A stretch of DNA of 34,244 bases from Gemmatimonadota bacterium (GTDB lineage: Bacteria; Gemmatimonadota; Gemmatimonadetes; Gemmatimonadales; Gemmatimonadaceae). Shown one piece after another: positions 2,290 through 18,983 of the stretch (its first letter is position 1; every line of letters starts with the position of its first letter). A model generated the notes under the pieces. That model was not told where the DNA came from. It saw nothing but the letters and a program-made list of their open reading frames with translations, and searched no databases. The stretch covers positions 1 through 34,244 of the forward strand of contig JAJPIS010000124.1 of NCBI GenBank assembly GCA_021324635.1, given 5' to 3'. Both the position numbers and the translations under genes were made by a program.

Positions 2290-5200
2290 GTGGCGAGTGT
2301 GCTTCCCCCGGCGAGACCGCGCAGCCTGTTCGCTCGTCTGTTCGCGCGGCCCGTGGGCGCGGCGTGGCGGGTGGGCAGCGGCGCGGACGCGGAGCGATTT
2401 GCCGGTCCCATCCGTGGCGAGCTGCTGGGGGCTGAAGGACTCGCGGAGCATGCGCGAGCGCTCGCGCGCCAGCAGCGAGTGGTCTCCGCCAGCGCCCGAC
2501 CGCTCGCACGCGGCGGGCGACCCCTCCTCGAGCGGCTAGACGACACCCGGCGGATCCTCGAGACGGCGCGCGATACGCTCGCCGCCGCCGTCGAGCGCGG
2601 GGCCGACATCAGCCCGGCCGGCGAGTGGCTCCTCGACAACTTCTACGTGATCCAGGAGCACCTCCGGGAGATCCGCGCCAGCATGCCGCGCGGTTACTAC
2701 CGGGAGCTGCCGAAGCTCGCGGCCGGCACGCTGGCCGGGTACCCGCGCGTCTACGAGCTCGCCATCAGCCTGATCGGGAATACCGAGGGGCACGTCGAGC
2801 TGGAGAACGTGCAGCTCTTCGTCCGCGAGTTTCAGCGCGGTGCGACGCTGACGACCGGCGAGCTGTGGGCCGTGCCGACGATGCTCCGCCTCGGCCTCAT
2901 GGAGAACATCCGCCGGATGGCGCTCCGCACGGTGCAGCGCCTCGAGGAGGTGGAGGCGGCCGATCGATGGGCCGAACGACTGCGGGAGTCGAGCGACGAG
3001 GGGCCGGCGGCGCTGGCCACGGCGCTCGCCGGGTTCGTGAGCGGGCACCCCACGCTGACCCCGACGTTCGTCGCGCGCTTCCTCCAGCAGCTCCGGACCT
3101 ACCAGACGAACTTCACGCCGCTCGTCTGGCTCGAGCAGTGGATCGCCGAGGACAGCCTGAGCGCCGAGGACGCGATCGGCCGATCCAATCAGCGGCTCGC
3201 GATGACGCAGGTGATGATGGCCAACAGCATCACGAGCCTGCGCACGATCGCCCGCCTCGACTGGTCGGCGTTCGTGGAGGGGGCGAGCGCGGTCGAGGCG
3301 GTGCTGCGTCGCGATCCGACGAACGACTACCCGCGCATGACCTTCGGCACGCGAGACCAGTACCGTCACGTCATCGAAGACATCGCGAAGGGGACCGGAC
3401 TCGAGGAACGCGACGTCGCGCAGCGGGCGTTGGAACTCGCGCAGCGGGCGGCGGCGGCCGGCGGCCCGGGCACATCAGCCACCGCCGCCGCGGCGCGCGA
3501 CGGCGCCGCCCCGCCCACCTCAGCCCCCGCCCCGGCCGCCGCCCCCGCCGCGCCCGCCCCGGTGGCGCCCGCCGTCGCCGATCCGACGACCGACCGGCGT
3601 CCGGCGCACGTCGGCCACTACCTCGTGGGGGAAGGGCGTGGGCTCCTCGAGGCGGTGACGCGCTTCCGGCCGCCCTGGCGTCTCCGGTTGCACCGGCGCG
3701 TGCTGGCGCACGCCGACAGCGTCTACTTCGGCGGCATCGCGGTGGTCACCCTCGCCCTGCTGGCGATCGCCTTCCGCCTCGTCGGGCCACTCGGGCCGGT
3801 GCCCCAGCTCCTCGTGCTCGCGTTCGCGCTCGTCCCGGCGAACGACATCGCGATCAACATCATCCATCAGGTCCTGACGGTCCTGCTCCCGCCGCGCGTG
3901 CTCCCCAAGCTCGATTTCGAGGAGTCGGGGATCCCGGCCGACTCGAGCGCCGTCGTCGTCGTGCCGATCCTGCTCGGGAACATCGAGGCGGTGAAGGAGG
4001 CGCTCGAGCACCTGGAGGTGCAGTTTCTCGCCAACCGCGATTCGCATCTCCAGTTCGCGCTCCTCAGCGACTTCACCGACGCCCCGGCCGCCACCCGCGA
4101 GGGGGACGGCGCCATCCTCGACGCGGCCGTGCGCGGCGTGCAGGCCCTCAACGAGCGGTACCCGGCGCCGGCCGGGCATGGCGACACGTTCTTCCTCTTC
4201 CACCGCCACCGGCTCTGGAACGAGCGCCAGGCGGCCTGGCTCGGATGGGAGCGCAAGCGCGGCAAGCTCGCGCAGTTCAACCGGTACCTGCGCGGCGGGG
4301 CGCGCGAGGCGTTCTCGGTCGTGGTCGGCGATACGCGCGTCCTGCGGAACGCCCGCTATGTCGTGACCCTCGACTCCGACACGGTGCTACCGCGCGGCGC
4401 CGCCGCGACGCTCGTCGGAGCGATGGCACATCCGCTCAACCGCGCGATCTACGACCCGGCGAGCGGGCGCGTCGTGGCCGGCTACGCGATCCTCCAGCCA
4501 CGCATCGGGATCACCCTCACGAGCGCGAACCGGTCGCGCTTCGCCTCGATCTATTCCGGGCACCCCGGGGTCGACCCCTATACGACCGCCGTCTCGGACG
4601 TCTATCAGGATCTCTACGCCGAGGGGAGCTACACGGGGAAGGGCATCTACGACATCGACGCCTTCGAGCTCGCGACGCACGGGCGGTTTCCCGAGAACAC
4701 GCTGCTGAGCCACGACCTGATCGAGGGTGCGTACGGCAGGGCGGCGCTCGCGACGGACGTCGAGCTGTTCGACGATTTCCCCACCCGGTACCTCACGTTC
4801 ACGCGGCGGAAGCACCGCTGGATCCGCGGCGACTGGCAGTTGCTCCGCTGGCTCGGTGCCCGCGTGCCCGGGCCCGATGGGCCGGAGCCCAATCGACTCT
4901 CGGCCATCTCGCGCTGGAAGATCTTCGACAACCTCCGCCGGAGCGTGGTGGAGATCGCCCAGCTGGTGCTGCTCGTCGCCGGCTGGCTCGTCCTCCCGGG
5001 GACGGCTCGCCTCTGGACGTTCCTGGCGCTGGCCGGGATCGCCTCTCCGTGGGCGTTCTCGCTCGCCCTGGCCCTGGTCCGGCCGCCGGGTGGCAAGTCG
5101 TGGCGGGCCTACTACCGGTCGGTCGGACGCGACGCCGTCACGAGCGCCCAGCAGTTCGCGCTGGCGGTCGTCTTCCTGCCGCACCAGGCGGTCGTATCGG

Positions 5201-8200
5201 CGGACGCGATCCTGCGAACGCTCTGGCGGCTGTTCGTGACCCGGCGCAACCTGCTGGAGTGGCAGACCGCGTCGCAGGTCGAGCGCGTCCTCGGGACCGG
5301 CTCGCCGCGCGAGGTCTGGCGCCGGATGGCGCCGGCGGTCGCGGTCGCGGCGGTGATCGCCGTGCTCGTCGGGCTTCGCGCGATCTTCGCCCGGGGGACG
5401 TCCTGGGCCGCGCTCCACCCGGTGCTGTACCTCGAGGTCACGCTCCCGCTGATCGCGCTCTGGGCCGCGAGCCCGCACTTCGCCAACGCCCTGAGCGCCC
5501 CGGCGGTGCGACGGGAGCGGCGGCTGTCGGCGAGCGAGCGGTGGACGGCGCTCCGGTATGCGCTGTTGCACTGGCGGTACTTCGATCGCTTCGTGACCGC
5601 CGAGACCCAATGGCTCGCGCCCGACAACTTCCAGGAGGATCCGGCCCCGGTCGTCGCGCCGCGGACGTCGCCCACGAACATCGGGCTCCAGCTCCTGGGC
5701 ATCGTGAGCGCCTACGATCTCGGGTTCCTCTCCTGTGGCGCGATGATCGAGCGGCTCGAGCTGGTGTTCCGCTCGCTCGAGCGCATGGAGCGCTTCCGCG
5801 GTCACTTTTACAACTGGTACGACCTCGCCGAGCTGCGGGTGCTGGAGCCGCAGTATATCTCGACCGTCGACAGCGGGAACCTCGCCGGGCACCTCCTGGC
5901 GCTCAAGCAGGCCTGTGTCGCGATCGGCGACGACCCGGTGGCCGACGGCCGCGTCTGGGATGCGCTCTCGACGTCGCTCACCATGGCGGCCGAGGAGCTG
6001 CGCGGCGCCGCATCGTCGGGCGCGGTCGACAGTCCACGCCAGTGGCAAGCGGTGCTGGAAGCGGCCGAGCGCGTCCGGGCGGTGCTCGCCTCGCTCCCGC
6101 AGGCGGCGGCCCGGTCACCCGCGACGGCAGCCGTCGCCGCGGGGACCGACGATGCGGCCGCCCACGTCCGCTCGATCGAGATGCTGCTCGACCGACTCCG
6201 CGCGGCCGAGCGCGTCCTCGTCGACCGTGGCGCGACCCAGACGCCAACCGGAGTCGTGGGGGCCTCGGCCAGTGCCTCGGCGAGTGCCCCGGCGAGTGCC
6301 CCGGCGGGCCCCGCCAGCGGCGCCTCGGCCGACGCGCCGATCGACGGCTCACTCGCCGCGCCCGCGGCGCCGGCCGCGCCGGCCGCGTCTGACGCGAGCG
6401 AGCATCCTGCCACGGCCGAGCACGACATCGATGCCGCCGCGATGCGACGCGCCGAGGAGTCGCGCGCGGCGATCGCGCTCGCCTATACGCCGGCGCCGGC
6501 GACCGAGCCCGCGACCGCGTGGCTCACCTGGGCTCGCGCGCTCCTCGAGCGCCACCTCACCGAGCTCGCGGCGATCGGGCTGGCCACCGGCCCCAGGCTC
6601 GAAGGGGACGGAGACCGGACCGTGCCGGCCGGCGCCGGCGGCGCGGTCCCGAGCGTCACCGGCCGGATGCCGACGCTGCGGGAGGCGGCGCGGACCTCCG
6701 GGTACGCCGCCGAGCAGCTGCAGCGGCTCCACGTGCTCGCCGAGCGCGCCGAGGCGTACGCGATGGAGATGGACTTCCGCTTTCTGTTCGACTCGCGGCG
6801 GAAGATCTTCGCCATCGGCTATCAGGTCGGCACCTCGTCGCTCGACGCATCGTACTACGACCTCCTCGCGTCGGAGGCGCGGCTGGCCAGCTACGTCGCG
6901 ATCGCCAAGAACGACGTGCCGGTCGAGCACTGGTTCCGGCTCGGACGCTCGCTCACCACGGCGGCCGGCGAGACGGCCCTGATCTCGTGGAGCGGGAGCA
7001 TGTTCGAGTACCTGATGCCGGCGCTCGTCATGGAGTCGTTCCCGTTCACCCTCCTCGACCAGACCTACAACGGCGCCGTCGCCCGGCAGATTGCCTATGC
7101 GCGCGAGCGGGGCGTGCCGTGGGGCGTCTCCGAGTCGGCCTACAACGCGCGCGACCGGAACCAGGTCTATCAGTACCGGGCCTTCGGGGTCCCGGACCTG
7201 GCGCTCAAGCGCGGACTGTCGCGGGACCTGGTGGTGGCGCCGTACGCCACGCTCCTGGCACTCGCGATCGAGCCGCACCAGGCGATGCGCAACCTCGCGG
7301 CCCTCGAGGGCGAAGGGGCCCTTGGCCCGTTCGGCTTTCGCGACTCGGTCGACTATACGCGCCCCGTCCCGGGCACCCGGAAGGCGATCGTGTGCGCCTA
7401 CATGGCGCACCACATCGGCATGGGCCTCATGGCGCTCAACAACGCCATCAACCGCCAGATCTGGCCCCGCCGCTTCCACGCCGATGCCCTCGTCCGGTCG
7501 GCGGAGCTCGTCCTGTTCGAGCGCATCCCGCGGCGGTTCGAGACGCAGGAGGCGCAGACGGGCGAGCGCGACGAGCGGCCGCGCCGCGGCGGTCCGGCGA
7601 TCGAGAAGCCGTCCGCCCGATCGGTCGACACGCCGCACACGCCGCGCCCCCGCCTCGCCCTGCTCGGCCACGCGCCCTACACCGTCATGACCACCAACGG
7701 TGGGGGCGGCTACAGCCGCTTCAACGGCATCGATGTCACCCGCTGGCGCGCCGACGGGACGTTGGATCAGACCGGCCAGTGGTGCTACATCAAGGATGTC
7801 ACCAGCGCGGGGTCCGCCGTCCCGGTGACGCGCACCCGGCTCTGGTCGGCCGCCTATCAGCCCGTCGCCGCGCCGCCCGACTGGTACCGGGCCACCTTCG
7901 CGACCGATCGCGCGACGTTCCAGCGACGCGACGCCGACATCGAGACCCGCCTCGAGGTCACCGTCGTGCCGGACGACGCCGCCGAGGTCCGGCGGCTCAC
8001 CCTCACCAACCACGGCTCGAGCACACGCGAGCTGGAGCTCACGAGCTACGGTGAGATCGTGCTCGCACCGCACGACGCCGACCGGCAGGGGGCGGCGTTC
8101 TCCAGCCTGTTCGTCGAAACGGAGTGGTTGCCGGCGAGCGCGGCGATCCTCGCCTCCCGCCGCCCCCGGTCCGCCGCCGAGCGGCCGGTCTGGGGCGTGC

Positions 8201-11200
8201 ACGTCGTCGCCGTCGGCGGAGGACACGGGTCGGCCGGCCGCGAGCTCGTCGGCACCGCGTCGTGTGAGACCGATCGCGCCCGGTTCCTTGGCCGCGCCCG
8301 CGGGGTGCGGTGCCCGGCCGCGCTCGACGATGCGGCCGACGGGCCGCTGAGCGGCACGACCGGCGCCGTGCTCGATCCGGTGTGTGCGATCCGGGTGCGG
8401 GTGCGGATCGGGCCCGGTCTCTCGGTGCGCGTCGCCTTCACGACCCTCGTCGCCCCGGATCGCGATCGGGCGGTGGAGCTGGCCGACCGTTACCACGATT
8501 CCTACAGCGCCCAACGCGCGCTCGACCTGTCGTGGATGCAGGCACAGGTGGAGCTGCGCGAGCTGGGGATCTCCCCGGCCGACGCCGCCCTGTACCAGGA
8601 CATCGCGGGCTATCTCATGTACACGACGTCGGCCGTGCGCGCGCCCCAACGCGACCTGCTGGCCGCCCGCCGAGGACAGGATGCCCTCTGGGCCCACGGG
8701 ATCTCGGGCGATTACCCGATCCTCCTCGCGCCGGTCGAGTCCACGGCCGGCGTCCCGACGGTCCGCGAGCTGCTCGCCGCCCATCACTACTGGCGGCTCA
8801 AGGGTGTGACGGTCGATCTCGTCCTGCTCAACTGCTACCCGCCGACGTACCTCCAGGAGCTCCAGGAGGCGTTGGTGACGACCGTCATGGGGTCGACCGA
8901 GGCATCGCTCCTCGACAAACCGGGAGGCGTGTTCATCCGCCGGCGCGACCTCATGCCCCCGGACGACGTGGCGGCCCTGCGCGCGCTGGCGAGCGTCGAG
9001 GTGCCGTGCGACGGCGGGTTGCGGCTGGCCGAGATCCTGGAAGTGCCCGAGGTGGCGCCGGACTACCCGGCGGTGTTCGTACCGCGGGTGCAGACGGCCA
9101 ACGCGATCGTGACCCCGAGCACGCTCGCGGCGGCGGCGGCCCGGAACGCGGTCGAGGGGAACGGCGACACGCGGCAGGCCGCGCAGTCGAGCACGACCGG
9201 CTCCACGTCGGCTCCGGCGTCGGCTCCCGCGTCGGCTCCCACGTCAGGCGGGGCGATCGGCGCCGCCTCTGGCCCGGCGGCCGGCATGGACGGCGCGGTC
9301 CGCCGACTGGCGCCCGTCGTCACGATCGGTGCCGGGTCGGCGGCCGGTGGCGGCCGGAGTGGCGATGCCACCAATCCGCCGGGCACGGCGGGCGTCGGGG
9401 ACGGGACGGACTCGCGCGATGGCGCGGCCGGCGACCGCGGCGCGCTCGCCCCGGCGCGGCCGGGCGGGGCCGGCGGGATCGACCCGCCGGTCCTTCGCAC
9501 CGCCGGATGGGCCGCCGGCGCGCGGGCGATCGCCGCGTCGGCGCATCCCAACGGCCTCGGGGGCCTCGCGGCCGACGGCGCGTACGAGATCGTCCTTCGC
9601 GACGACGCGACGACACCCGCGCCCTGGTGCAACGTGATCGCCAACGAGCGCGGAGGCTTCGTCGTCTCCGAGAGCGGCACCGGATGCACCTGGGTCGACA
9701 GCAGCTACTTCTACCGGCTCACCCCCTGGCGGAACGATCCGGTCAGCGATCCGTGCACCGATGTCCTCTATCTGCGCGACGACGAGACGGGGGAGGTGTG
9801 GACGGTCACGCCGCTCCCCGTCCGCCATGCGTCGCCCTATCTCGTGCGCCACTCGCCGGGGAGCACCGAGTTCCGCCACACGCACGCCGGGATCGCGGCC
9901 ACGTTGACGGTCGGGATGGCACCGACCGATCCGGTCAGGATCGCCGTCCTCACGATTGCGAACGAGACCAACCACGCCCGCCGGCTCACCGTCACCAGCT
10001 ATGTCGAGTGGGTGCTCGGGGTCGCGCGTGAGGTGACCCGGCACCACGTGCGCACGACGTTCGATCGCGAGACGGAGGCGCTGTTCGCGCAGAACGGCTT
10101 CGACCCACAGTTCTCGGGGCTGGTCGCCTTCGCCGCGCTCAGCGAGCCGGTGAGCGGGCAGACGGGGGACCGGCGGGAATTCCTCGGCAGGAACGGCGAC
10201 TACGCCGACCCGGCGGCGCTCCGGCGCGCGCTCCTGGCCGAGGCCAACGGGGTCGGCCTCGACCCCTGTGCGGCCCTCCAGTGCGATGTCACACTCGGCC
10301 CCGGCGAGACGCGAACGATCGTCGCCATCCTCGGCGCCGCGCAGGGCCAGGGCGCGGCCAGGCAGCTCGTGCGCGCCTACAAGGACCGCGAGTCGGCCCG
10401 GCGTGCGCTCCTGGCCGCGCGCGCACAGTGGCAGACGCGGCTGTCGACCGTGACCGTGCGCACGCCCGTGCCGGAGTTCGACGCCCTGCTCAACGGGTGG
10501 CTCCTGTATCAGGCGCTGTCGTGCCGCATGTGGGGCCGCACGGCCGTCTACCAGTCGAGCGGGGCGTACGGGTTCCGCGACCAGCTCCAGGATTGCTGCG
10601 CCTTCCTCTATGCCGAGCCGGGCGTGGCCCGCGCGCACATCGTGCGGTCGGCCGGGCGCCAGTTCAAGGAAGGAGATGTGCAGCACTGGTGGCATCCCCA
10701 GACGGGGCAGGGGGTCCGCACCCGCTTCTCCGACGATCTCGTCTGGCTCCCGTTCGTCGTCGACCGCTACGTCACCGTGACCGGCGATCTCGGCGTTCTG
10801 GACGAACGGGCGCCGTTTCTCACGACCCGCACCCTCGAGCCGCAAGAGCAGGAGCTGTACAATCGGCCCGATGTCTCGGGGGAGGAGGGGACCGTCTACG
10901 AGCACTGCGTCCGCGCGCTCGACCGGGCGACGACCGTCGGCCCGCACGGCCTGCCGCTGATCGGCAGCGGCGACTGGAACGACGGATACAATCGGGTGGG
11001 GATCGAGGGACGGGGCGAGAGTGTGTGGCTCGCCTGGTTCCTGATCGCGACGCTGCATCGGTTCGCGACGCACTGTGACGCGCGGGGGGATGCCGCGACG
11101 GCCCAGGATTTCCGCCGCAAGGCGGACGCGTACGCGGCGGCGGTCGAGGCGACCGCGTGGGATGGCCACTGGTACCGGCGCGCCTACTTCGACGACGGCA

Positions 11201-11961
11201 CGCCGCTCGGCAGCGCGTCCGAGACCGAGTGCACGATCGACTCGATCGCGCAGAGCTGGAGCGTGATCTCGGGCGTCGCGCCGGCCGACCGCGCCCATCG
11301 GGCCATGGCCTCGCTCAACGAGCACCTCGTGCGCGAGGACGCACGGCTCATCATGCTGCTCACGCCGCCCTTCGATCACACGCAGCACGATCCCGGCTAC
11401 ATCAAGGGGTACGTGCCGGGCGTGCGCGAGAACGGCGCGCAGTACACGCATGGCGCGCTCTGGGCGGTGCTCGCCACGGCGCTCATGGGGGACGGCGCGC
11501 GCGCGCTCGAGCTGTTCCAGATGCTCAATCCGCTGACGCACTCGGCGACGCCCGACGCGGTGGCGCGCTACAAGGTCGAGCCGTACGTGGTGGCGGCCGA
11601 TGTGTACACGGCGGCCGGGCATCTCGGCCGCGGCGGGTGGACGTGGTACACGGGCTCGGCCAGCTGGATGTACCGGGTCGGTCTCGAGGCGATTCTCGGG
11701 TTCACCAAGGAGGGCGACACGCTTCGGATGGACCCGTGTATCCCCCCCGAGTGGGAGGGGGCGTCACTGACGTACACGTTCGGCTCGGCGCGCTACCGGA
11801 TCGAGATCCGGAACCCGACCGGCATCAGCTGCGGCGTCCGCGCGGTCACGGTCGACGGCACGCTCGTGCTCACCGGCGCCGTGCCGCTGGTCGACGACGG
11901 GCGCGAGCACGAGGTCGTGGTCGAGCTCGGGGTGGTGTCGGCGCTCGCGCCGGTGGGCTAG
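2290..11961 (+). CDS. ndvB: Cyclic beta-1,2-glucan synthase (NdvB/ChvB type), unusually long
   Basis: A giant inner-membrane enzyme that polymerises UDP-glucose into beta-1,2-glucan, trims it and cyclises it; in proteobacteria the product is a periplasmic osmoregulated glucan. The visible order is: N-terminal helical region (to about 390); membrane segments (about 475-535); GT84 glycosyltransferase core with DSD (695-697) and HRWIRGDWQ (842-850); further membrane segments (about 885-1070); glycoamylase-like domain (about 1490-1755); first GT36/GH94 beta-sandwich (about 1780-1950); second beta-sandwich (about 2420-2700); GH94-type catalytic (alpha/alpha)6 domain with GSGDWNDG (2892-2899). At 3223 residues it is about 400 longer than the roughly 2800-residue family norm. 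The excess is mostly Ala/Pro/Ser/Gly linkers at about 393-436, 1325-1376 and 2296-2404, the last two with 12-bp DNA repeats. The start is a GTG with no clear ribosome site. Confidence 0.93.
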   Translation: MASVLPPARPRSLFARLFARPVGAAWRVGSGADAERFAGPIRGELLGAEGLAEHARALARQQRVVSASARPLARGGRPLLERLDDTRRILETARDTLAAAVERGADISPAGEWLLDNFYVIQEHLREIRASMPRGYYRELPKLAAGTLAGYPRVYELAISLIGNTEGHVELENVQLFVREFQRGATLTTGELWAVPTMLRLGLMENIRRMALRTVQRLEEVEAADRWAERLRESSDEGPAALATALAGFVSGHPTLTPTFVARFLQQLRTYQTNFTPLVWLEQWIAEDSLSAEDAIGRSNQRLAMTQVMMANSITSLRTIARLDWSAFVEGASAVEAVLRRDPTNDYPRMTFGTRDQYRHVIEDIAKGTGLEERDVAQRALELAQRAAAAGGPGTSATAAAARDGAAPPTSAPAPAAAPAAPAPVAPAVADPTTDRRPAHVGHYLVGEGRGLLEAVTRFRPPWRLRLHRRVLAHADSVYFGGIAVVTLALLAIAFRLVGPLGPVPQLLVLAFALVPANDIAINIIHQVLTVLLPPRVLPKLDFEESGIPADSSAVVVVPILLGNIEAVKEALEHLEVQFLANRDSHLQFALLSDFTDAPAATREGDGAILDAAVRGVQALNERYPAPAGHGDTFFLFHRHRLWNERQAAWLGWERKRGKLAQFNRYLRGGAREAFSVVVGDTRVLRNARYVVTLDSDTVLPRGAAATLVGAMAHPLNRAIYDPASGRVVAGYAILQPRIGITLTSANRSRFASIYSGHPGVDPYTTAVSDVYQDLYAEGSYTGKGIYDIDAFELATHGRFPENTLLSHDLIEGAYGRAALATDVELFDDFPTRYLTFTRRKHRWIRGDWQLLRWLGARVPGPDGPEPNRLSAISRWKIFDNLRRSVVEIAQLVLLVAGWLVLPGTARLWTFLALAGIASPWAFSLALALVRPPGGKSWRAYYRSVGRDAVTSAQQFALAVVFLPHQAVVSADAILRTLWRLFVTRRNLLEWQTASQVERVLGTGSPREVWRRMAPAVAVAAVIAVLVGLRAIFARGTSWAALHPVLYLEVTLPLIALWAASPHFANALSAPAVRRERRLSASERWTALRYALLHWRYFDRFVTAETQWLAPDNFQEDPAPVVAPRTSPTNIGLQLLGIVSAYDLGFLSCGAMIERLELVFRSLERMERFRGHFYNWYDLAELRVLEPQYISTVDSGNLAGHLLALKQACVAIGDDPVADGRVWDALSTSLTMAAEELRGAASSGAVDSPRQWQAVLEAAERVRAVLASLPQAAARSPATAAVAAGTDDAAAHVRSIEMLLDRLRAAERVLVDRGATQTPTGVVGASASASASAPASAPAGPASGASADAPIDGSLAAPAAPAAPAASDASEHPATAEHDIDAAAMRRAEESRAAIALAYTPAPATEPATAWLTWARALLERHLTELAAIGLATGPRLEGDGDRTVPAGAGGAVPSVTGRMPTLREAARTSGYAAEQLQRLHVLAERAEAYAMEMDFRFLFDSRRKIFAIGYQVGTSSLDASYYDLLASEARLASYVAIAKNDVPVEHWFRLGRSLTTAAGETALISWSGSMFEYLMPALVMESFPFTLLDQTYNGAVARQIAYARERGVPWGVSESAYNARDRNQVYQYRAFGVPDLALKRGLSRDLVVAPYATLLALAIEPHQAMRNLAALEGEGALGPFGFRDSVDYTRPVPGTRKAIVCAYMAHHIGMGLMALNNAINRQIWPRRFHADALVRSAELVLFERIPRRFETQEAQTGERDERPRRGGPAIEKPSARSVDTPHTPRPRLALLGHAPYTVMTTNGGGGYSRFNGIDVTRWRADGTLDQTGQWCYIKDVTSAGSAVPVTRTRLWSAAYQPVAAPPDWYRATFATDRATFQRRDADIETRLEVTVVPDDAAEVRRLTLTNHGSSTRELELTSYGEIVLAPHDADRQGAAFSSLFVETEWLPASAAILASRRPRSAAERPVWGVHVVAVGGGHGSAGRELVGTASCETDRARFLGRARGVRCPAALDDAADGPLSGTTGAVLDPVCAIRVRVRIGPGLSVRVAFTTLVAPDRDRAVELADRYHDSYSAQRALDLSWMQAQVELRELGISPADAALYQDIAGYLMYTTSAVRAPQRDLLAARRGQDALWAHGISGDYPILLAPVESTAGVPTVRELLAAHHYWRLKGVTVDLVLLNCYPPTYLQELQEALVTTVMGSTEASLLDKPGGVFIRRRDLMPPDDVAALRALASVEVPCDGGLRLAEILEVPEVAPDYPAVFVPRVQTANAIVTPSTLAAAAARNAVEGNGDTRQAAQSSTTGSTSAPASAPASAPTSGGAIGAASGPAAGMDGAVRRLAPVVTIGAGSAAGGGRSGDATNPPGTAGVGDGTDSRDGAAGDRGALAPARPGGAGGIDPPVLRTAGWAAGARAIAASAHPNGLGGLAADGAYEIVLRDDATTPAPWCNVIANERGGFVVSESGTGCTWVDSSYFYRLTPWRNDPVSDPCTDVLYLRDDETGEVWTVTPLPVRHASPYLVRHSPGSTEFRHTHAGIAATLTVGMAPTDPVRIAVLTIANETNHARRLTVTSYVEWVLGVAREVTRHHVRTTFDRETEALFAQNGFDPQFSGLVAFAALSEPVSGQTGDRREFLGRNGDYADPAALRRALLAEANGVGLDPCAALQCDVTLGPGETRTIVAILGAAQGQGAARQLVRAYKDRESARRALLAARAQWQTRLSTVTVRTPVPEFDALLNGWLLYQALSCRMWGRTAVYQSSGAYGFRDQLQDCCAFLYAEPGVARAHIVRSAGRQFKEGDVQHWWHPQTGQGVRTRFSDDLVWLPFVVDRYVTVTGDLGVLDERAPFLTTRTLEPQEQELYNRPDVSGEEGTVYEHCVRALDRATTVGPHGLPLIGSGDWNDGYNRVGIEGRGESVWLAWFLIATLHRFATHCDARGDAATAQDFRRKADAYAAAVEATAWDGHWYRRAYFDDGTPLGSASETECTIDSIAQSWSVISGVAPADRAHRAMASLNEHLVREDARLIMLLTPPFDHTQHDPGYIKGYVPGVRENGAQYTHGALWAVLATALMGDGARALELFQMLNPLTHSATPDAVARYKVEPYVVAADVYTAAGHLGRGGWTWYTGSASWMYRVGLEAILGFTKEGDTLRMDPCIPPEWEGASLTYTFGSARYRIEIRNPTGISCGVRAVTVDGTLVLTGAVPLVDDGREHEVVVELGVVSALAPVG
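6262..6309 (+). repeat. 12-bp coding tandem repeat in ndvB linker 2
   Basis: Four 12-bp units of the form GCCYCGGCSAGT encode the Ala-Ser-Ala-Ser/Ala-Pro-Ala-Ser linker between the membrane region and the glycoamylase domain. The unit keeps the reading frame, so copy-number change would alter linker length only. Confidence 0.8.
9204..9251 (+). repeat. 12-bp coding tandem repeat in ndvB linker 3
   Basis: Three units ending GTCGGCTCC plus a degenerate fourth encode Ser-Ala-Pro-Ala repeats at the start of the roughly 110-residue low-complexity linker between the two beta-sandwich domains. Confidence 0.8.
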
Positions 11962-13695: not shown

Positions 13696-15771
13696 CTACC
13701 GGACGAGCGACCGCGCCGCCTCGACCACGTGATCCACGGTGAGCCCCAGCTCCGTGTAGATCCGCTGGAACGGCGCCGACGCGCCGAAGCGCTCGAGCCC
13801 GATCACGATGCCGTCGGCCCCGATCCACCGGTACCACGACATCGGATGCGCCGCCTCGACGGCGATCCGGGGCACTCCGGGCGGAAGCACCGCCCGCTGG
13901 TACTCCGCCGACTCCCGTGCGAACAGCTCAAGGCTCGGCGCGCTCACCACGCGCGCCCGCACACCGGCCGCCGCCAACCGCTCCTGCGCACCGAGGATGA
14001 GCGCCAGCTCCGAGCCGCTCGCCAGCAGCACCACCTGCGGCGGCCCGCCGGCCGCGTCCCCCAGGACGTACGCCCCCTGGGCGACGCCACTGGCGCTCGC
14101 GAACCGCGTGCGGTCGATGAAGACGAGCTTCTGCCGGCTGAGCACGAGCGCAATCGGTCCGTCCTCGTGCTGTATCGCGACCCGCCACGCCTCCGCCACC
14201 TCGTTGGCGTCTCCGGGGCGCAGGACGGTCATGTTCGGGATGCAGCGAAGCGCCGACAACTGCTCGATCGGCTGGTGCGTCGGCCCGTCCTCGCCCAACC
14301 CGATCGAGTCGTGCGTGTAGATGTAGATGACGTGCTGCTCCATCAGGGCCGCGAGGCGGATGGGGGGCCGCATGTAGTCGGAGAAGATCAGAAAGGTCCC
14401 GCCGAACGGGATCGTGCCACCGTGCACCGCGAGCCCGTTGAGGATGGCGCCCATGCCGTGCTCGCGAATCCCGAAATGGATGTAGCGTCCGGCGAAGTCG
14501 CTCGGGGCGAAGTTGCGGATCCCGGCGAGGGCCGTGTTGTTGGACCCGGTGAGGTCCGCCGAGCCGCCCACGAGCTCCGGGACGCGCCCCGCGATGGCGT
14601 TGAGCACCGTGCCCGAGGCCGCACGGCTCGCGACATTGCCATTCTCCGCCGTGAAGGTCGGGATGTCGGCGTCCCAATCGGCCGGAAGCTCGCCGCGCAG
14701 CCGCCGCTCCAGCTCCGCGGCTGCCGTCGGGTAGGCCGACTGATAGGCCGCGAACCGCATCTGCCACTCCTCGTGCGCCGCCCGTCCGCGCGGCTGCGCC
14801 TCGCGCCAGCGGGCGATCGCCTCGTCGGGGACGAAGAACGGCTCCGTCCAGGGCCACCGCAGGGTCTTCCGGCTCTGAGCGACCGCCTCGACGCCGAGTG
14901 CCTCGCCGTGCGCCTTGGCTGAATCCTGCTTCGGGCTGCCGTAGCCGATGTGCGTTCGGCAGATGATGAGCGATGGCCGGCTCGTCTCCGCCCTGGCGGC
15001 GCGGATCGCCGCGTCGACGCCATCGAGATCGTTCACATCGGGCACGTGCTGCACGTGCCACCCGTAGGCCTCGAACCGCTCGCCGACGTTGTCGCTGAAG
15101 GTGAGATCGGTCGAGCCGTCGATGGTGATGTGGTTGTCGTCGTAGAAGCCGACCAACTTGCCGAGCTGGAAATGGCCGGCGAAGGAGGCCGCCTCGTGCG
15201 ACACCCCCTCCATGAGATCGCCATCGCTACAGATGAAGTACGTGTGGTGATCGATGATCCGATGCCCCGGTCGGTTGAACACGGCCGCCAGGTGGGCCTC
15301 GGCGACCGCCATCCCGACGGCGTTGCCCACGCCCTGACCGAGCGGCCCGGTGGTCGTCTCGATGCCGGGCGTCTCCCCGTACTCGGGATGCCCCGGCGTG
15401 CGGCTCCCCCATTGCCGGAACTGCTTGATGTCGTCGAGCGAGAGATCGTACCCCGAGAGGTAGAGCGCCGCGTACAGGAGCATGCTCGCGTGTCCCGCCG
15501 AGAGCACGAAGCGGTCGCGGTCGGGCCACATCGGGTCTGCCGGGTCGTGCTTGAGATGCCGCGTGTACAGCAGATACGCGAGCGGCGCGAGCGCCATCGG
15601 CGTCCCCGGGTGCCCCGAATCCGCCTTCTGGACGGCATCCATGGCGAGGATGCGCACGGCGTTGATCGCGACCAGATCGAGGTCGCCGGCCGGCGGGATC
15701 GGCGGTGGGGAGGCGGATGCGGAGGCAGGGGTCGGCTGGGCGCGTGTGGCGCCCTGGGCGGCGGTGTCCAT
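13696..15771 (-). CDS. tkt: Transketolase
   Basis: Thiamine-diphosphate enzyme moving two-carbon ketol units between sugar phosphates in the pentose phosphate pathway or a Calvin-type cycle, in the cytoplasm. The 691-residue length is close to normal. The ThDP-binding block CSDGDLMEG (181-189) with Asn213 in YDDN is present, as are His54 in DSGHPG, His94 in LSAGH, GPLGQG (142-147) and the pyrimidine-domain IREHGM containing the catalytic Glu. An Ala/Pro/Ser-rich extension of about 28 residues precedes the usual N-terminus. The ATG at 15771 has no ribosome site, but TATCTT sits 6 nt upstream, suggesting a leaderless mRNA. It is not tightly linked to other sugar-phosphate genes, though the nearby malyl-CoA lyase and hydroxyacid dehydrogenase also serve central carbon metabolism. 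Confidence 0.96.
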
Positions 15772-15845: not shown

Positions 15846-16679
15846 TCAGTCGCAGGTCACGACGTCGTCGGGTACGGGGCGCGGGTCCGGCGCCGCGGGA
15901 TCGCCCGCGGGGACGGCGCCGTGGGCGAGGAGACACTGCATGCCGGGCGCGCGGCGGAAGGTCGCGCGCGCGCGCCACCCGTCGGCGGTCGCGGCCGTGA
16001 CGGTCACCGACACGTCCGGGTCCCAGACGAACGGGTCGAGCGCGCCGAGGTCCGCCGTGTACCGCCGGTGCACGGCACGATACCGGGTCTCGCTGCGCCG
16101 GAGCGCGCGCAGCGCGTAGGTCATGTAGCTCCGCCCCGCGGCGTCCCATTCGGCCGGCGCCGTGTACCCATCACCATCGCAGGAGACTTCCGCTTCCGGG
16201 TACACCTTCTGCTCGGCCGCCGTCGCCGGCCGCTCCGGCGGCTCGATCGCCCCGACCCAGACGACGCAACTGTGTGTCACGGTCGCGGTGCCGAGCTCCG
16301 CCCGAGCCGCCCAGCCACCGGGCTCCGCGTGCGTGATCTCCACGACCACGCCCGCGTCCGGATGGAACATCGGGAGCAGCGCGGCCTCCGAGGCATACGT
16401 GCGGCGGCCCCGCCAGTAGACCTCCTGCGCGGCAACGAGACGGCGGAGCGTCGCGCGCGCGCGCTGCACCGCCTGGCGCGGTGCCATGTCCTGGGCCACG
16501 GTGATGGCCCCGGACGCCGCCGGCTCGACCGGCCTGGCGACCGCCTGTGACTGGGCGCCCGCGACGTGCGATGCCGCGGAGAGGGTGAGTGCGAGGCCGG
16601 CGGCCGCCGCGACCGGCGGGCGCCAAGGGGCGCGGGCCCGACAGGCCCATCCCCGGGGCGCGGTCCCACGTGTGGTCAT
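15846..16679 (-). CDS. Secreted protein with two type IV pilin head-like modules
   Basis: A 277-residue protein with a signal peptide (hydrophobic stretch about 22-40, likely cleavage after AGA at 42). Two similar modules follow, at about 79-143 and 191-254. Each has LRR, an aromatic-rich helix ending in a Tyr (RRTY, RRYT), a Leu-rich turn, a Val/Thr strand, a GW-A-RA strand and a Cys in the last strand (Cys138, Cys249), then a GA end. This resembles the globular C-terminal part of type IV pilins, but the prepilin cleavage site and N-terminal helix are absent. Further Cys at 167 and 276. The ATG at 16679 was chosen over an upstream TTG at 16685; neither has a clear ribosome site. No function is assigned; pilus-interacting or envelope protein is a guess. 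Confidence 0.75.
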   Translation of the reverse strand: MTTRGTAPRGWACRARAPWRPPVAAAAGLALTLSAASHVAGAQSQAVARPVEPAASGAITVAQDMAPRQAVQRARATLRRLVAAQEVYWRGRRTYASEAALLPMFHPDAGVVVEITHAEPGGWAARAELGTATVTHSCVVWVGAIEPPERPATAAEQKVYPEAEVSCDGDGYTAPAEWDAAGRSYMTYALRALRRSETRYRAVHRRYTADLGALDPFVWDPDVSVTVTAATADGWRARATFRRAPGMQCLLAHGAVPAGDPAAPDPRPVPDDVVTCD

Positions 16680-16740
16680 ACCCAACAGAGTCCCCCGCCG
16701 GGGCGGAGGTAACGGGGCCGGCGCGCGGGCACCCTCGCCG

Positions 16741-17739
16741 TCAGGCGACGCGGTCGCGCGGACGGGTACCGCCGAAAAAGGCGGTCAGATTGGCGAGGGC
16801 ACGCTCGCCCATGGCGACGCGCGACTCGACGGTCGCGCTGCCCAGGTGCGGCAGCAGCACGAGATTGGGGAGCTCGAGCATCTCCCGCCGCGGACGCGGC
16901 TCGTCGGCGAACACGTCCAGGGCGGCACCGGCGATCGTTCCCGAGCGGAGAGCGGCGATGAGGGCCGTCTCATCGACGATGTCGCCGCGCGCAGTGTTGA
17001 CGAGGCAGGCGTGCCGCGGCATGCACGCGAGGCGCTCGGCGTCGATCAGGTGCCGAGTCTCGGGACTGGACGGCACGTGCAGCGAGACGAAGTCGCTCTC
17101 GCGGAGCACGGCCTCGACCGACGTGCGGGGCGACGCGCCCGCCGCCTTGGCCTCGCCGATCGGCACCGGCGGGTCGTAGTAGACCACACGCATGCCGAAC
17201 CCGTCGTGCGCACGCCGCGCGACGGCGCGGCCGATGCGCCCCATGCCGAGGATGCCCAGGGTCTTGCCGCTGACGCGCGTGCCCAGGAGGTATGTGGGGT
17301 GCCACCCGGTCCAGCGGCCCTGACGAAGCTCGTCCACGCCCTCCCCCAGCCGCCGGGCCACCATGAGCAGCAGCGCGAGCGTGAGGTCCGCCGTGTCGTC
17401 GGTCAACACATCCGGCGTGTTCGTCACCACGACGCCATGCGCCCGCGCGGCGTCGACGGCGATGTTGTCGTAGCCGGCCCCGTAGTTGGCGATGATCGCC
17501 GCCCGGCGCCCGGGCGCACCGATGATGTCCGCCGTCACCCGGTCGCTCACCGTCGGCACGAGCGCGTCGGCGGTTCGCAGCGCCTCACGGAGCTGCTCGG
17601 GGGTGAACGGCCGGTCGGACTCGTTGAGCCGGACGTCGAACAGCTCGGCCGCGTGCCGCTCGACGGCGCTCGGCAGCCGCCGGGTGATGACGACGCTGGG
17701 GCGCGGGCCCGCCGAGCCGCTATCGGCCGGACGTGACAA
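16741..17739 (-). CDS. D-2-hydroxyacid dehydrogenase (glyoxylate/hydroxypyruvate reductase type)
   Basis: NAD(P)H-dependent reductase of 2-oxoacids such as glyoxylate and hydroxypyruvate, cytoplasmic. The 332-residue protein has the family signature: NYGAGYDNI (85-93), the Rossmann motif LGMGRIG (164-170), the catalytic residues Arg251 (NTARGD), Glu280 (ADEP) and His298 (LPHLGSAT). Its length is typical. The start is read as TTG at 17739, overlapping the last 20 bp of the malyl-CoA lyase gene upstream; no better start is seen and translational coupling is likely. The pairing suggests that glyoxylate released by the lyase is reduced here. The exact substrate (glyoxylate, hydroxypyruvate or another 2-oxoacid) and NADH/NADPH preference cannot be decided from sequence. 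Confidence 0.92.
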   Translation of the reverse strand: MSRPADSGSAGPRPSVVITRRLPSAVERHAAELFDVRLNESDRPFTPEQLREALRTADALVPTVSDRVTADIIGAPGRRAAIIANYGAGYDNIAVDAARAHGVVVTNTPDVLTDDTADLTLALLLMVARRLGEGVDELRQGRWTGWHPTYLLGTRVSGKTLGILGMGRIGRAVARRAHDGFGMRVVYYDPPVPIGEAKAAGASPRTSVEAVLRESDFVSLHVPSSPETRHLIDAERLACMPRHACLVNTARGDIVDETALIAALRSGTIAGAALDVFADEPRPRREMLELPNLVLLPHLGSATVESRVAMGERALANLTAFFGGTRPRDRVA

Positions 17740-18694
17740 GCGTCAGGGCCGGCGTGCGGCGTGCGGCGATCGCGTCGGCCATCGACACGATGTTCTGGGC
17801 CAGCCGCATCGACGCGGCGTCGATCATCTTCCCGTCCAGTTGCGCCGCACCGCGGCCGGCCGTTGCCGCCTCATCGATCGCTCTCAGGATGCGGCGGGCG
17901 CGGTCGACCTCGGCCGCGTCCGGGGTGAAGACCTCGTTCGCCAATGCCACCTGCGACGGATGGATCGCCCACTTGCCCTCGATCCCGAGTGCGGCCCCAC
18001 GCCGCGCCGCTGCCAGGAAGCCCTCGCGGTCACTGAAGTCCCCGAATGGTCCATCGATCGGGCGCAGGCCGTGCGCCCGACTGGCGACGACGAGGCGCGT
18101 CAGCGCCGAGTGCCATTGATCCCCGGGATAGTCCGGTGTCGTGCCGCCGATACTCGTCGTCCGGGCGCGCACGCTGGCCGCGTAGTCGGCCACCCCGAAG
18201 TGCAGCGCCTCGAGACGGCGACTGGATTGAGCGATCGCTTCGACGTTCGACATGCCGAGCGCCGTCTCGATCAGCGTCTCGATGCCGATCCGGTGCGGCA
18301 GGCGCCGGGCCTCCTCGATCTGCGTGAGAAGGACATCGACCAGGTACACGTCACTGGGCGTGCCGACCTTGGGGACGAGGATGGTGTCGAGCCGGTCGCC
18401 GGCCTGCTCCACGATGTCGACCAGGTCGCGATACATGAACTGCGTATCGAGCCCGTTGATGCGGAGCGAGACGGTCTTGCCGCGACTCCGCCAGTCGTGG
18501 TCGCGCAGTCCCTTGATGGCGGCCGCGCGCGCCGCCTCCTTGTCGGCCGGAGCGACCGAGTCCTCGAGGTCAATGAAGACGTAGTCCGCGTCGCTGTGCA
18601 GGGCCTTGCCGAACAGCTCCGGGCGCGATGCCGGCACCGCGAGCTCGCTCCGTTGCAGACGCTGCCGCGCAGGCTCGATGCGCGCGCCGCTCAT
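17720..18694 (-). CDS. mcl: L-malyl-CoA/beta-methylmalyl-CoA lyase-like protein (HpcH/HpaI family)
   Basis: A 324-residue CitE/Mcl-type lyase that would cleave malyl-CoA to acetyl-CoA and glyoxylate, or methylmalyl-CoA to propionyl-CoA and glyoxylate, reversibly. Visible features: FIDLEDSVAPADK (40-52), SLRINGLDT (76-84) with substrate Arg78, metal ligands Glu143 (IETALG) and Asp170 (FGVADYAAS), and the C-terminal block PIDGPFGDFSD...GKWAIHPSQ...NEVFTP, which matches the Mcl1 group more than citrate lyase beta subunits. The start is ATG 18694, with GGAGG about 4 nt upstream, although the frame is open further upstream. It overlaps the dehydrogenase gene by 20 bp, forming a probable two-gene glyoxylate unit. 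A thioesterase-type paralogue role cannot be excluded. Confidence 0.85.
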   Translation of the reverse strand: MSGARIEPARQRLQRSELAVPASRPELFGKALHSDADYVFIDLEDSVAPADKEAARAAAIKGLRDHDWRSRGKTVSLRINGLDTQFMYRDLVDIVEQAGDRLDTILVPKVGTPSDVYLVDVLLTQIEEARRLPHRIGIETLIETALGMSNVEAIAQSSRRLEALHFGVADYAASVRARTTSIGGTTPDYPGDQWHSALTRLVVASRAHGLRPIDGPFGDFSDREGFLAAARRGAALGIEGKWAIHPSQVALANEVFTPDAAEVDRARRILRAIDEAATAGRGAAQLDGKMIDAASMRLAQNIVSMADAIAARRTPALTLVTSGR

Positions 18695-18800
18695 CGCCCC
18701 TCCGATGCTCGCTCCGCCATCGATGTGAGCCTCCACGCGCCGGTCGGAGCTGTCCGGGTGCGCACCGGTCGGTGCGCACTCCTCCCCCCGGCGCTGGCCG

Positions 18801-18983
18801 TCAGCGCACCAGCTGCTCGACCTCGGCCGCCTTACACCTGTTCTCGTGGTCCGGATAGGCCTTACCACAGTGGATGCACTGCTCGCCGAAACCGGTGCGC
18901 TTCCAGATCAGATAGTAGACCGCCCGCTGGAGCGCGGCGATGCGCTCGCTGAGCTGGCGGAGGTCCGTCTCGGGAGGGGTCAT
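18801..18983 (-). CDS. 60-residue protein with a CxxC...HxxxC metal-site-like motif
   Basis: A small, mostly helical protein. The N-terminal half is a predicted amphipathic helix (LRQLSERIAALQRAVYYL); the second half has Cys36, Cys39, His46 and Cys50 in the pattern C-x2-C-x6-H-x3-C, which could hold one zinc. No family is recognised. It lies 106 bp upstream of mcl on the same strand, so could be its operon leader. The ATG lacks a strong ribosome site. The regular motif and its sensible amino acid mix argue for a real gene rather than chance. Confidence 0.55.
   Translation of the reverse strand: MTPPETDLRQLSERIAALQRAVYYLIWKRTGFGEQCIHCGKAYPDHENRCKAAEVEQLVR

Follow-up and report, generated by a model that had tools for sequence, protein, structure and literature searches.

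What defines a type IV pilin is its N-terminal helix; the globular head is regarded as a part of the filament brick. The window (the whole stretch of DNA analysed, 34,244 nucleotides), from a soil-dwelling member of the Gemmatimonadota, holds a gene for a protein of exported type that carries two pilin heads and from which the pilus-building tail is absent. It was asked whether such a protein is still a pilin and, if it is not, what use a pair of heads may have.

The protein and its two modules

The open reading frame, coordinates and strand proposed in the earlier note were correct on re-check; the features are collected in Table 1.

Table 1. Features of the double-head gene and its immediate neighbours (positions in the window; residues of the encoded protein).
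Feature	Position	Strand	Basis or remark
Secreted double-head protein (P0001), whole gene, 277 aa	15846..16679	-	exactly one ORF
Signal peptide, residues 1-42, predicted cleavage between VAGA and QS	16554..16679	-	inferred; hydrophobicity peak at ~residue 23; crude scan for A-x-A followed by Q
Linker, ~residues 43-66, low model confidence	16482..16553	-	pLDDT 54-62, first 20 residues of mature model
Module A, pilin head, ~residues 67-168	16176..16481	-	pilin-head profile, phylum profile (16176-16481), PilV fold match
CDGDG inter-module linker, residues 167-177	16149..16181	-	CDGDG also in L003, L004, L009, L089, L098
Module B, pilin head, ~residues 178-277	15849..16148	-	pilin-head profile, PilA4 fold match
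Upstream neighbour, 2-hydroxyacid dehydrogenase (hydroxypyruvate reductase-like)	16741..17739	-	PF02826; same in G001, G002
Downstream neighbour, transketolase	13696..15771	-	PF00456; same in G001, G002

The window protein gave no match in Pfam, in NCBIfam or among PDB sequences, and it stands outside all curated Pfam and NCBIfam families. No relative was found in the viral contig collection; of two scans of the genome contig collection, the first gave no relative and the second only the two orthologues from the same genus. These orthologues (congeneric genomes G001 and G002) are full-length, with ~50% identity to the window protein, and dN/dS between the two was 0.151/1.124 = 0.13. As judged from this ratio, the gene is under purifying selection; a pseudogene was ruled out on the same ground.

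A prepilin peptidase site (G/A, F, then E5) was not present anywhere upstream of the heads, and a prepilin leader missed through a wrong start was ruled out by reading the frame upstream of the start. The continuous hydrophobic N-terminal helix that leads into the head of a pilin is absent; the helix of the model begins at residue 62, after the low-confidence linker. The cleavage site is of the signal peptidase I type, and the homologues are built alike, so that the reading of a normal signal peptide in place of a prepilin leader, with no pilin helix, was upheld. Assembly of type IV pili depends on prepilin cleavage, Glu5 and alpha-1 packing; a protein lacking both the prepilin leader and the hydrophobic helix should therefore not polymerise, and on its sequence the window protein is not a pilin.

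The two modules were aligned with each other (local score 87); 5000 shuffles gave a mean of 29.4 (sd 5.4) and no score as high. The features named in the earlier note as common to both (LRR, the aromatic helix with Tyr, the GW-A-RA strand and a late Cys) could be located in each: L78-R80, Y95, G122-W123, C138 and C167 in module A; L190-R195, Y207, G234-W235, C249 and C276 in module B. Identity of A to B was 28%, and the median identity to pilin heads was 31% (A) and 29% (B); the modules are thus about as far from each other as each is from pilin heads, and a recent tandem duplication was ruled out. The Cys pair of the pilin D-region was found in both (Cys138-Cys167 in A, Cys249-Cys276 in B), and these pairs are presumed disulfides. 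In several double heads the motif CDGDG connects the modules, and some modules terminate in CDGD; the motif could be a metal site.

Likeness to pilin heads in sequence and in predicted fold

Canonical prepilins (GFTLIELL...) were retrieved in large number from 99 related genomes, and their heads aligned with both modules. A profile made from the heads of 19 canonical prepilins only, starting after the hydrophobic helix, gave with the window protein 61.3 bits at residues 71-155 (A) and 45.6 bits at 186-264 (B); in the control, made up of 5000 shuffles plus the reversed sequence, no single domain scored above 11.9 bits. With a canonical pilin as query, the search of the bacterium's own genome returned module A with E 4.4e-11 and module B with E 3.3e-5. 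Chance resemblance was ruled out by the shuffle tests and the profile scores. The profile pilins had themselves been retrieved via the window protein, and independent support comes therefore from Pfam: ComP_DUS (PF16732) weakly matched 9 of 35 helix-less members of the set described below and Pilin_GH (PF16734) weakly matched 8 of 35, these being the sole Pfam families to match more than one of the 35. The window protein itself gave no match to either at the gathering score.

The mature window protein was modelled with AlphaFold2 from 35 alignment rows, module B resting mainly on ~15 rows of double heads. The model had a mean pLDDT of 88.2 and a pTM of 0.62, at which the relative placement of the two modules is not reliable. 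Each module was predicted as a helix of 31 residues followed by three strands; this long helix with an antiparallel sheet would correspond to the C-terminal half of alpha-1 and the sheet of a pilin head. The model was structurally aligned with 672 PDB chains, and all nine chains with Z >= 5 were type IV pilins (Z 6.2-11.4): PilA4 (Z 11.4, model residues 129-235) and PilE (Z 9.6) on module B; PilV (Z 9.7), a Shewanella pilin (Z 7.5), ComP (Z 7.4) and others on module A. Foldseek alone gave a weaker signal, its best match being PilA4 with E 1.6e-3. L032, a canonical pilin encoded in the same genome, was modelled in its turn; it gave a single helix over residues 4-55 and three strands, and its top PDB match was likewise Thermus PilA4. 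Module B is the more divergent of the two. The proposal that the modules look like pilin heads was thus borne out by the head profile, by the own-genome pilin search and by the predicted fold, in which the modules resemble each other as well as pilin heads, the check that the earlier note had proposed. Descent from pilin heads, together with the head fold, is regarded as practically certain.

Helix-less heads in related Gemmatimonadota

In related Gemmatimonadota 46 helix-less head proteins were recognised. Neither this number nor the 96 head modules analysed are a census: they come from loci returned by the searches and from high-scoring or long-frame regions, pilins were told from helix-less heads by applying a regular expression to stop-to-stop frames, and repeat loci were dropped before counting. 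A profile search of the phylum matched 323 of 395 genomes, canonical pilins included, and is not a count of helix-less heads. Helix-less heads occurred singly and in pairs behind signal peptides, singly and in pairs behind lipoboxes, as TM-anchored heads with a DUF2939-like domain and as C-terminal heads of M56 peptidases. A signal-peptide or lipobox pattern was detected by a crude regular expression in 32 of 35 free helix-less proteins, the assignments in L007, L051, L096 and L104 looking misplaced and L005 and L083 matching both kinds.

The 96 modules comprised 53 main helix-less modules, 35 pilin heads and 8 modules, TM-anchored or attached to another domain, that were separated by hand after the sequences had been seen (L022, L028, L062, L090, L108, L110, L112, L114). 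Both Cys were present in 53/53 main modules, at a spacing of 27-31 as against 18-22 in the 35 pilin heads; the longer loop before the last Cys was common to all 53 and occurred in 0/35 pilin heads. Almost every helix-less head, but hardly any pilin, had residues in seven adjacent columns of this loop, and Asp followed the last Cys directly in 49/53 modules and 0/35 pilins. In the eight modules set apart, the spacing was long in three (26, 28, 29) and pilin-like (19) in five. The alpha-1 positions before SDLRN that are near-fixed in pilins (K 0.83, K 0.86, A 0.97, A 0.77) were variable in the helix-less heads, which fits, as expected, a release from filament packing.

A tree of the 96 modules was calculated by a quick method from 93 columns, insert columns being left out. 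All 35 pilins stood on one side, joined by six TM-anchored or other-domain heads, and the other helix-less heads stood apart; the label changes needed were 2 (HL) and 3 (PIL). As many as 43 of the 93 inner branches are open, and the tree settles neither a single origin of detachment nor the number of origins of the double form. Module A of the window protein grouped with the single-head paralogue of its own genome (84), and module B did not.

Two M56 peptidases (PF05569) carry a C-terminal pilin head, double in L009 and single in L100; the M56 domain is absent from the window protein and occurs among the relatives only in these two. A clear head was found in only 2 of 20 M56 loci examined (regions L055:9695-11772, double, and L100:1553-3189, single). 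In both genomes the M56-head gene directly adjoins a gene for a Penicillinase_R (PF03965, BlaI-like) repressor. The M56 domain and the adjacent BlaI-like repressor are common to these proteins and to peptidases of the BlaR1/MecR1 type; the extracytoplasmic C-terminal part is a pilin head in the former and a penicillin-binding domain in the latter. The fusions suggest that a sensor can use the head domain as its input, and the relatives that are lipoproteins or M56 ectodomains point to a domain more general than a pilus partner.

Other neighbourhoods were as follows. In five genomes (L060, L061, L095, L096, L097) lipoprotein double heads lie behind an AAA/BTAD-type regulator on the same strand, the gap between the two genes being ~12 bases in L060 and L096. 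In two families, single secreted heads (L052, L053, L056) lie beside or near genes for electron-transfer flavoprotein or ETF-quinone oxidoreductase (ETF, ETFQO_UQ-bd). The single-head paralogue of the window genome (L047:7225-9685, contig C66) adjoins a gene for isocitrate lyase, and the same holds for its orthologues (related by blast) in L050 and L051.

Genomic setting and possible role

The place of the window gene between a hydroxypyruvate-reductase-like gene and transketolase is kept in three species of the genus. In G001 and G002 the cluster also holds a gene resembling that for malyl-CoA lyase, genes for two subunits of a CoA ligase and an aminotransferase-like gene; with these genes the conserved neighbourhood is read as a serine-cycle cluster. 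The aminotransferase-like gene and the two CoA-ligase genes are absent at this place in the window (16679-18983).

The likely explanation of the protein is a pilin head that has lost its assembly helix and been doubled, to serve as a soluble bivalent binding module; for binding or recognition as the function, taken alone, the chances are about even. The protein would be exported by Sec, the signal peptide being removed by signal peptidase I. Each module would fold as the C-terminal half of pilin alpha-1 packed on an antiparallel sheet and, to judge from the conserved Cys pairs, would probably be closed by one disulfide. A protein with no prepilin site, Glu5 or hydrophobic helix would undergo neither prepilin peptidase processing nor stacking into a filament. 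The double head would then act in the periplasm or outside the cell as a soluble bivalent binding module. Its most likely contact surface would be the lengthened D-region loop before the last Cys, doubled for bivalent binding, since this loop is the novelty shared by the detached set and the D-region is a known receptor-binding part of pilins. The same domain in M56/BlaR1-like proteins would sense that kind of ligand.

Tentatively, this explanation may be extended to the whole phylum: in Gemmatimonadota the pilin head may have become detached on one or a few occasions and taken up a general use in recognition outside the cytoplasm, marked by a characteristic loop, be it in secreted proteins with one or two heads, in lipoproteins behind BTAD/AAA regulators or in M56 ectodomains. 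The window double head might in that case serve head-based sensing as a partner in solution, or compete with it, the target being for example a ligand that both bind or the pili of the cell itself.

According to another explanation, free heads would dock on the head faces of the type IV pilus of the same organism, capping, decorating or inhibiting the filament, as an encoded counterpart of the S-pilin of Neisseria. The head family is indeed that of the organism's own pilins, and PilM was matched in 18/18 genomes with helix-less heads (the match in G010 weak and partial, that in G002 cut by the contig end). However, the helix-less heads are unlinked to pilus loci: none was located on the contig of the best PilM match in 17/18 genomes, and in G043, the only exception, the distance was 66 kb; the contigs are fragmented, and the non-linkage holds within contigs. 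Canonical pilins of the same head family, on the other hand, were found at 7/8 PilM regions examined. The packing positions of pilins are not conserved in helix-less heads, the neighbourhood of the window gene is metabolic with no pilus assembly gene among the neighbours, and among the proteins encoded beside helix-less heads (104 of 138 scanned) no type IV pilus family occurred among the 25 most frequent of 134 families. Docking on the pilus is accordingly considered unlikely. The earlier note had proposed a search for pilus genes nearby and for co-occurrence; the latter was found in the PilM matches and the former was not, and a pilus cap, partner or decoy has no support from genomic context.

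Of the 14 head matches at PilM regions, 2 were flagged as helix-less by the regular expression, both in L139; our reading is that these are pilins cut by the contig end or by a broken frame. L139:6798-8149 is a row of pilin genes with two pieces that have no N-terminus, the first lying where the contig ends and the second in a broken frame, possibly silent or rearranged pilin copies, or a misassembly. On the PilM contig of the window genome (C5, 6 kb) there was no pilin. Three contigs of the same genome (C8, C65, C91) each end inside a pilin gene just past the conserved N-terminal 32 residues, a pattern that would arise if repeats of the pilin start had interrupted the assembly.

An accessory periplasmic protein of the serine-cycle/glyoxylate cluster, for example a sensor or binder of cluster substrates, would agree with the gene order kept in the three species and with the isocitrate lyase gene beside the single-head paralogue; three species of one genus may, however, keep gene order through descent alone, the gaps to the upstream gene (377 bases in G002, 451 bases in G001) suggest an own promoter, and helix-less heads elsewhere have different neighbours, which leaves this explanation improbable. 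A functionless, decaying pilin relic that lost its helix and drifts would accord with the strong divergence from pilins (~30% identity) and the lack of a characterised function, but is made very improbable by the low dN/dS of the orthologues and by signal peptides, Cys pairs and loop conserved across two families of the order.

With the detached and doubled head as the preferred explanation, the protein may be compared with known systems. It has in common with type IV pilins (Thermus PilA4, 6xxd; Neisseria PilV, 5v23; Pseudomonas PilE, 4noa; Neisseria ComP, 5hz7) the head fold, the C-terminal half of alpha-1 and the D-region Cys pair; it differs by having no prepilin leader and no hydrophobic helix, two heads per chain and a longer loop before the last Cys. 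S-pilin of Neisseria is a soluble pilin without the N-terminal part, arising by proteolysis of the pilus subunit; both it and the window protein are of a soluble type with the N-terminal part missing, S-pilin being a cleavage product and the window protein the product of a separate gene with two heads. The window protein is likewise similar to truncated pilin constructs such as that of PilBac1, in which 35 residues were removed for crystallography (PMC4376143): both are soluble heads without the membrane helix, the constructs being engineered and the truncation in the window protein being gene-encoded, with its own signal peptide. In searches of the open-access literature on helix-less, soluble or secreted pilin heads, S-pilin, pilins with M56 or sensor domains and type IV pili of Gemmatimonadota, no description of encoded helix-less heads was found.

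A head that is exported alone, doubled, lipidated or used as the ectodomain of a sensor protease is an independent, portable module, and natural soluble heads, tandem ones among them, make D-region binding open to study without polymerisation. Elsewhere in the window (2290-11961) a protein of 3223 aa was found that combines a glycoamylase-like domain with the supersandwich and catalytic domains of GH94, a composition like that of cyclic beta-1,2-glucan synthases.
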